Part shown: piece after piece, positions 15,032 to 26,799 of the stretch | Numbering within the stretch: position 1 is the stretch's first letter | Layout: each line of letters opens with the position of its first letter | From: Candidatus Duberdicusella sinuisediminis | GTDB taxonomy: Bacteria > Omnitrophota > Gorgyraeia > Duberdicusellales > Duberdicusellaceae | Length of the DNA stretch: 35,007 bases | Assembly: GCA_003644445.1 (NCBI GenBank) | Contig: QNCG01000005.1 | Span: forward strand, 1 to 35,007 | Reading direction: 5' to 3' | Notes under the pieces: model-generated | The model's input: the letters and a program-made list of their open reading frames with translations, nothing else | What the model was told of the DNA's origin: nothing | Database searches by the model: none | Program-made: the position numbers and the translations under genes

Positions 15032-15433
15032 ATGAGAAGGTCAAAGAGGAAAAGACTTACTGGTTTTGAAAAGAAAGTTTTAAAATGTGTAGCTAAGATA
15101 CCCTTAGGAGAGGTCCGCAGTTATAAATGGGTAGCTAAGAAGATAGGTAAACCCAATGCTTTTCGAGCAGTAGGCAGGGTTTTAAACAAGAATCCTTTTC
15201 CTTTCTTTATACCCTGTCACCGGGTAATAAAGAGTAACCAGGATATCGGAGGATATTCTTTAGGAAAAAATTTGAAAAAAGAATTGTTAGAATTAGAGAA
15301 GGCTATAAAGAAAAGTTTATTTACCCCGCACCACCAGAGAGCCACGGGTGTAAACCTGCAGATGAAGAGAAAAATATTCCGAAGGGTAATGTCCAAAAGC
15401 CACCTCGCCCTTTCAAGGAAAGGGCGAGGTTAA
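15032..15433 (+). CDS. O6-methylguanine-DNA methyltransferase, DNA-binding/active-site domain (PCHRV), C-terminus extended by an insertion element
   Basis: FEKKVLKCVAKIPLGEVRSYKWVAKKIGKPNAFRAVGRVLNKNPFPFFIPCHRVIKSNQDIGGYSLG; active-site Cys retained. The tail after SLFT is encoded by the 15324-15446 element. Confidence 0.88.
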   Translation: MRRSKRKRLTGFEKKVLKCVAKIPLGEVRSYKWVAKKIGKPNAFRAVGRVLNKNPFPFFIPCHRVIKSNQDIGGYSLGKNLKKELLELEKAIKKSLFTPHHQRATGVNLQMKRKIFRRVMSKSHLALSRKGRG

Positions 15434-15446
15434 GCGGTGGTGGGGG
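15324..15446. mobile_element. 123-bp MITE-like element with imperfect TIRs and TTTA direct repeats
   Basis: Left CCCCGCACCACC (15324-15335); right GGTGGTGGGGG (15436-15446; reverse complement CCCCCACCACC); flanked by TTTA at 15320-15323 and 15447-15450; contains the internal hairpin 15403-15429. Confidence 0.65.
15403..15429. repeat. Perfect 12-bp inverted repeat CCTCGCCCTTTC-AAG-GAAAGGGCGAGG
   Basis: Direct reading; 12-bp stem, 3-nt loop. Confidence 0.95.
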
Positions 15447-15471
15447 TTTACCTAAAATTAAGGAGGAGGCA

Positions 15472-26236: not shown

Positions 26237-26799
26237 TGAGTATATTTTTAAGAAAGGTTTATAGACTCTCTGCTTTGATTTTTCCTTTAACCTATTTTTT
26301 TTCTTCCAAGGCTTTTATCTTAGGCATAACCGGAGTTATTCTTCTGGGACTACTCATTTTAGAAATAGTTAGATTTAAAAACCCTTCCTTTAATAGGAAA
26401 ATATTTTCTTCTTTTTCTCGCCTTTTAAAAGACAGAGAAAGAGAGAGAATTTCCGGGACTACTATTTTTTTTATAGGAGTTTTTATTACGGTTTTAATTT
26501 TTCCTAAGGAGATAGCCATAATTTCTTTACTTTACTTAATTGTAGGAGATGCTCTCTCAGGGATAGTCGGGTTTAACTGGGGAAGATTTAAGATAGGTAA
26601 AAAATCCTTGGAAGGATTTTTAGCTTGTTGGTTAGGTTGTTTGGGTATAGGTTTAATTTTAAGAATTTTTTTTCTCTTTTCTTACCCGGCACTGATTTTA
26701 TCTTCTTTGGCTGTAGCTTTAGTAGAATTATTCCCCTTTATTGACGATAATTTAACTATACCTCTAATAGGAGGGGCTATTCTCTATGTTCTTAGATAG
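26236..26799 (+). CDS. Diacylglycerol/polyprenol kinase (SEC59/VTE5/dolichol-kinase-like) family membrane protein
   Basis: ATG at 26236 overlapping the upstream TAA (tracked ORF begins 26191); SGTTIFFIGVFITVLIFPKEIAIISLLYLIVGDALSGIVGFNWGRFKIGKKSLEGFLACWLGCLGIG...VELFPFIDDNLTIPLIGG. Confidence 0.78.
   Translation: MSIFLRKVYRLSALIFPLTYFFSSKAFILGITGVILLGLLILEIVRFKNPSFNRKIFSSFSRLLKDRERERISGTTIFFIGVFITVLIFPKEIAIISLLYLIVGDALSGIVGFNWGRFKIGKKSLEGFLACWLGCLGIGLILRIFFLFSYPALILSSLAVALVELFPFIDDNLTIPLIGGAILYVLR

Follow-up and report, generated by a model that had tools for sequence, protein, structure and literature searches.

The MGMT locus and its inserted segment

The window analyzed here, a stretch of 35,007 nucleotides, belongs to an Omnitrophota genome (G000, a MAG of 1.2 Mb in 117 contigs, 92% complete) and carries an MGMT-like gene with uvrC on one side and a pilT-like ATPase gene on the other. 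Its product matches the O6-methylguanine-DNA methyltransferase DNA-binding domain over residues 12–90 (PF01035, E=4e-30). The reading frame runs into a segment with imperfect inverted ends, TTTA flanks and an internal hairpin, all directly visible in the window sequence. The features of the locus, with their assignments under the reading that we favor, are as follows.

15032–15433, + strand: MGMT-like ORF, DNA-binding domain, 133 aa plus stop, lengthened by the insertion
15320–15324, + strand: left boundary TTTAC (core TTAC), retained target and putative left cleavage site
15324–15335, + strand: left arm of the imperfect terminal inverted repeat, CCCCGCACCACC, pairing with the right end
15325–15451, + strand: body of the mobile element, 127 bp in this copy (126 or 129 bp in frame-keeping copies)
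15326–15430, + strand: element-encoded C-terminal tail of 35 residues, from translation
15338–15341, + strand: putative left guide tetranucleotide AGAG, mutated from the consensus AAAG (alignment)
15342–15361, + strand: left-end subterminal hairpin CCACGGG TGTAAA CCTGCAG, weakened in this copy; consensus CCACGGGTGTAAACCCGTGG (covariation and single-stranded DNA fold of the consensus)
15396–15399, + strand: putative right guide tetranucleotide AAAG (alignment)
15400–15440, + strand: right-end subterminal hairpin, in the subfamily of the window copy with a perfect, G+C-rich inner stem of 13 bp (15402–15414 / 15418–15430)
15436–15446, + strand: right arm of the imperfect terminal inverted repeat, GGTGGTGGGGG (sequence)
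15447–15451, + strand: right boundary TTTAC, right cleavage site in an IS200/IS605 model and target duplication in the first reading
15453–15455, + strand: original MGMT stop codon TAA, not used in this genome

Virtual excision of 15325–15451, leaving one TTTAC, yields ...AAA AGT TTA TTT ACC TAA and thus a protein of 98 aa ending in ...KKSLFT*. In related genera, MGMT orthologues that lack the element stop at roughly this position, near residue 94–98 (...LEKKIKxMLK*). Both results agree with a preliminary description of this DNA, which had proposed that excision restores an in-frame stop and had named orthologues ending at the pre-insertion position as support. Two of its counts need correction: the tail comprises 35 residues, not 29, and the perfect hairpin inside the element is present but 13 bp long rather than 12. 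Elsewhere in the window, an ORF at 322–1062 has a prepilin-motif-like N-terminal sequence and an odd glycine/arginine-rich C-terminus (...RRGGGGDGFYNGMVGCGGESQGGRDPGEGRGSHR), possibly the product of a frameshift; a Pfam search with this ORF gave no match.

Copies, empty sites and age of the insertion

The window genome holds about seven short copies of the segment, including the one in the window. Five others are full-length (80–87% identity, E values from 7e-39 to 5e-28) and one is internally deleted; several more copies occur in the sister species G001, also of the Omnitrophota. All full copies start at TTTA(C), and the flank preceding it is unrelated among them. Searches with the flanks of G000 and G001 gave five clean pairs of filled and empty sites, in a TrpG-type gene, an ABC permease gene, mfd/surA, hisF/glmS and a prepilin gene. 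The empty sites hold a single TTTAC-type sequence and the filled sites read TTTAC-element-TTTAC, with TTCA at mfd and TGTG at the diverged hisF site. Since there are five other full-length copies, and empty sites for five other insertions, the repeat is not due to chance and the insertion in the MGMT gene is confirmed; the earlier view of a multicopy non-autonomous mobile element is thereby upheld. At one further site (G001:C3, position 39883), 13 bp of element remain where G000:C7 has a full copy at 26545, which shows loss by deletion.

A longer form of about 414 bp, its length taken from contig overlap, is present in at least two copies in G000 (start of contigs C72/C61 and end of contigs C19/C60). 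It shares the ends of the short copies and has a different interior, with AACTTGACA/TGTCAAGTT hairpins. It was considered as a parent element and rejected, as the approximately 330 bp inside are non-coding.

The MGMT copy occupies the same place in G001, and the insertion therefore predates the split of the two species. Counted on the alignment, 22 of 287 positions differ in the gene part (92% identical), compared to 19 of 122 in the element part (84% identical, with two indels). In G001 the frame is open through the whole element and stops at the original TAA (...GLSHGTEFT*), whereas the copy in the window has a deletion that changes the frame, and its ORF ends at an internal TAA. The frames differ between the two species, so the tail is not conserved as protein; it would be a neutral extension. 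Of the two scenarios offered previously, a very recent insertion is contradicted by the shared site and the divergence of the element, and domestication finds no support in a tail that is frame-shifted between the species.

The family extends beyond the sister pair. The consensus matched in 13 of 384 Omnitrophota genomes, and a left-end pattern with the target site left free matched in 15 Omnitrophota genomes, compared to none for the control. Among GTDB genomes a left-end pattern was found in a Thermodesulfovibrionales MAG, in the unclassified 0.6-Mb bacterium AUK207 (at least six copies), in AUK048 and in Omnitrophica 4484_213. Phage, plasmid and viral collections gave no match for the queries tried. 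Wider relatives keep hairpins of the type CCACGGG-TGTAAA-CCCGTGG on the left and CCACGGC-TGTxAA-GCCGTGG on the right, while tips and interior vary. In the copies from AUK048 and Omnitrophica 4484_213 (L132, L138) an extra palindromic segment of about 60–70 bp (CCGTTAGAGATA...TATCTCTAACGG) sits in the loop of the left hairpin, much like the small mobile repeats in PATEs. Two of the AUK207 copies (L129, L137) lie a few bases behind tRNA genes, and the first of these is followed by a partly duplicated tRNA 3' end. Another member (L162, G073:C104) lies inside a perfect inverted repeat of about 30 bp (GGGGACACAATACTTAATTCACCCCGCTCC).

Hairpins, guide letters and the mode of movement

The segment folds with an energy far below that of shuffled sequences (z = –5.75 as RNA, z = –4.0 as single-stranded DNA). 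As single-stranded DNA the family consensus forms two subterminal hairpins and a short stem, with the 5' foot 17 nt from the left tip, so that imperfect palindromes lie close to both ends; this layout is weakened in the window copy. Among 16 family members the left hairpin covaries: 84.8% of cells are paired, compared to at most 46% in slid controls, and 13 cells carry double changes, compared to 3.9 in shuffles. Over the outer seven pairs of the terminal inverted repeat, 90% of cells are paired.

IS200/IS605 elements normally lack terminal inverted repeats, and here the window subfamily departs from them, with inverted tips of 11–12 bp. The remaining architecture closely resembles that of IS608 from Helicobacter pylori, which has subterminal hairpins at both ends, guide tetranucleotides at the hairpin feet (left site TTAC with guide AAAG, right site TCAA with guide GAAT) and inserts 3' of TTAC, with a C at position +1 (PMC5934647). 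The present element shares the hairpins, the AAAG guide, the insertion point and the C; it differs in lacking a transposase, in its inverted tips and in a right site that is TTAC or TCAC, not TCAA. Both IS608 pairs are reproduced by a rule in which a site XYAZ matches the guide comp(Y)-comp(X)-n-comp(Z), and we tallied the family by eye against this rule. A tetranucleotide 5' of each hairpin matches the cleavage site, with some exceptions. The consensus has AAAG at both hairpins, and TTAC goes with AAAG at most left ends and at right ends of the window type. In G001:C71, L162 and L175 the left end combines TCAC with GAAG; right ends combine TCAC with GAAG, GATG or GAGG (L159, L164 and L175) and CCAC with GGTG (L166). 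In most of the 15 pattern-matched Omnitrophota genomes an A-A-n-G guide follows TTAC at a distance of 11–19 nt; G334 is one of them (ten listed copies read out of 31). In G400, TTAC is retained although the sequence ahead of the guide is otherwise completely different. Mismatches occur at the right ends of L160, L172 and G001:C71 and in single copies in G113, G241 and G163, and the AGAG left guide of the window copy also speaks against the model.

We conclude, with a probability of about 0.77, that positions 15325–15451 are one copy of a non-autonomous IS200/IS605-like element. The figure is kept at this level because the search for a partner transposase sharing these ends was negative and the tally was made by eye. 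Since guide and site letters agree across the family, the most suitable interpretation of the second TTTAC is a right cleavage site rather than a duplication. The mobile hairpin element, of roughly 130 bases, is apparently moved by the single-strand "peel-and-paste" route of IS200/IS605. A Y1 (HUH) transposase acting in trans would bind single-stranded DNA at both subterminal hairpins, the AAAG at the base of the left one would act as a guide by pairing with TTAC of the target, and the element would be pasted 3' of TTTAC, bringing its own right cleavage site and creating no true target duplication. In the common ancestor of the sister species, the site struck would have been the last two codons (TTT ACC) and the stop of the MGMT gene. 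The protein would have been lengthened rather than cut, given that the element has an open frame when read in the TTT-AC phase; drift of the element would have followed, with a 1-bp deletion in the window genome moving the frame onto the internal TAA.

The first reading of the locus was a classical MITE, in which a DDE transposase recognizes the CCCCGCACCACC ends and duplicates 4 bp (TTTA). Its descriptive part stands, namely inverted ends, TTTA flanks and non-autonomy, and much of the flank evidence fits it: 11–12 bp inverted ends, TTTA bordering almost all full copies on both sides, single TTTA in the empty sites, and an mfd copy with TTCA on both sides whose empty site reads TTTCACT. Indeed, the five empty sites suit a 4-bp duplication equally well. 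However, L159, L160 and L164 combine a left TTTAC with a right TTCAC, an asymmetry that duplication would not produce, and they lack inverted ends. Furthermore, the target is TTAC-like in almost all copies, guide letters within the element vary together with it, and it is the two subterminal hairpins, not only the tips, that are conserved. No partner with CCCCGCACCACC ends was found either, and the preliminary description's idea of a transposase with similar terminal repeats elsewhere in the genome found nothing to match it in our search. We therefore regard the duplication mechanism as unlikely and replace it by the IS200/IS605-like one. A structured regulatory RNA or terminator instead of a mobile element would account for the strong fold and the conserved unpaired segments, but it is refuted as the main explanation by the exact empty sites and sits poorly with in-frame insertion within proteins and a patchy distribution across phyla; an Rfam search returned nothing near threshold, and this reading can practically be set aside.

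As to the enzyme, a search for Y1_Tnp (PF01797) covered the own genome, relatives and carrier genomes; it gave no match in the host MAG or in G059, which has about six copies of the element. No transposase gene bounded by the ends of the element was found. G400, a carrier of a left end, has an IS200-type tnpA between hairpins with the same TGTAAA loop, with tips not identical to those of the element. A match in L236 was rejected as a chance match inside a gene. RAYT-length Y1 proteins are abundant in related and carrier genomes, and a REP/REPIN-type element moved by a RAYT (TnpA-REP) transposase would, like the studied element, be a short, hairpin-based, non-autonomous sequence mobilized in trans by a Y1 transposase. 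The RAYT genes inspected, in G001 and on a Thermodesulfovibrionales contig, have different flanking palindromes, however, and none flanked by the element's own repeat was found among the RAYT genes and carrier genomes inspected. Together with the missing Y1_Tnp match in the own genome, a different layout, and insertion exactly 3' of TTAC with an AAAG guide, this makes such an origin very improbable. The G001 gene (L186 1441–2340, G001:C45) is of RAYT type and lies between near-identical REP-like repeats, TTAATGCAACAAAAyAGTyCGGGACATTTTTGTCGCATTAA, unrelated to the studied element; the gene on the other contig (L128 84–810) encodes a 217-aa Y1 transposase-like protein with the palindrome TTACACCTCCGAGGTGTAA on both sides.

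In-frame insertions inside genes

All intragenic copies with coding sequence on both sides are open and in frame, and the host proteins were confirmed by Pfam. A TrpG-type glutaminase reads EITAF-[42 aa]-TEDREI, an ABC permease has a copy at its N-terminus, a prepilin of the window genome carries GSFTLHHQ...GAGFTLIEVLIAIA, a Thermodesulfovibrionales prepilin has two tandem 25-residue copies at GFT-LVEILI, and a RACo-like protein has gained 16 residues. The C-terminal ends of HisF, Mfd and FumB are encoded by the element. The counted net lengths of the internal insertions are multiples of three (126, 126, 126, 75 and 48), a pattern for which selection against insertions that break the frame is a sufficient explanation; we do not claim special frame targeting. 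In two different phyla the prepilin insertions lie exactly at the GFTL(I/V)E motif, presumably because the TTTAC(T) target encodes Phe-Thr in the open phase. On balance, we favor the view of a translation-compatible IS200/IS605-derived mini-element in Omnitrophota, Nitrospirota (Thermodesulfovibrionales) and the unclassified 0.6-Mb bacterium, which adds peptides of 16–43 residues in frame, has GFTLIE as a recurrent landing site via its TTAC target (TTT-AC, Phe-Thr) and resembles the Rickettsia palindromes while following a known guide-directed chemistry.

The best-known case of selfish DNA being translated within functional genes is that of Rickettsia, and to our knowledge how the palindromes move there is not known. 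Rickettsia palindromic elements (RPE) are hairpin elements of about 100–150 bp, found in frame in unrelated genes and giving a conserved translated peptide (reviewed in PMC10969869). The present element shares in-frame insertion with a conserved peptide (TrpG-type, permease, RACo-like, two prepilins and MGMT). It differs in occurring in other phyla, in fewer copies and also outside genes, and the rules for its target, guide and hairpins indicate a chemistry of the IS200/IS605 type; we would not file it as an RPE, the likeness drawn here being one of behavior in genes. PATEs (palindrome-associated transposable elements) of Haloquadratum are transposase-free, too short to code, make no duplication and have near-terminal palindromes related to IS605-type transposons (PMC3119063). 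The present element works like one, being transposase-free with near-terminal palindromes, but it has an open frame inside coding genes and occurs in bacteria of several phyla rather than in haloarchaea, and because the window subfamily has inverted tips it is not a strict PATE. We found no description of such an element from Omnitrophota in the literature searched, which is no proof of absence.

The same behavior is thus seen in phyla unrelated to Rickettsia, with rules from which transposase type and insertion site can be predicted. Both movement and protein effect thereby become testable; peptides such as ATGVNLQMK or GLSRGAGFTLIEVL, if detected, would show translation. Insertion of the element is a concrete way for prepilins and other proteins to gain extra segments. 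For annotation, the MGMT "tail" and others like it are better treated as mobile-element remnants than as domains.
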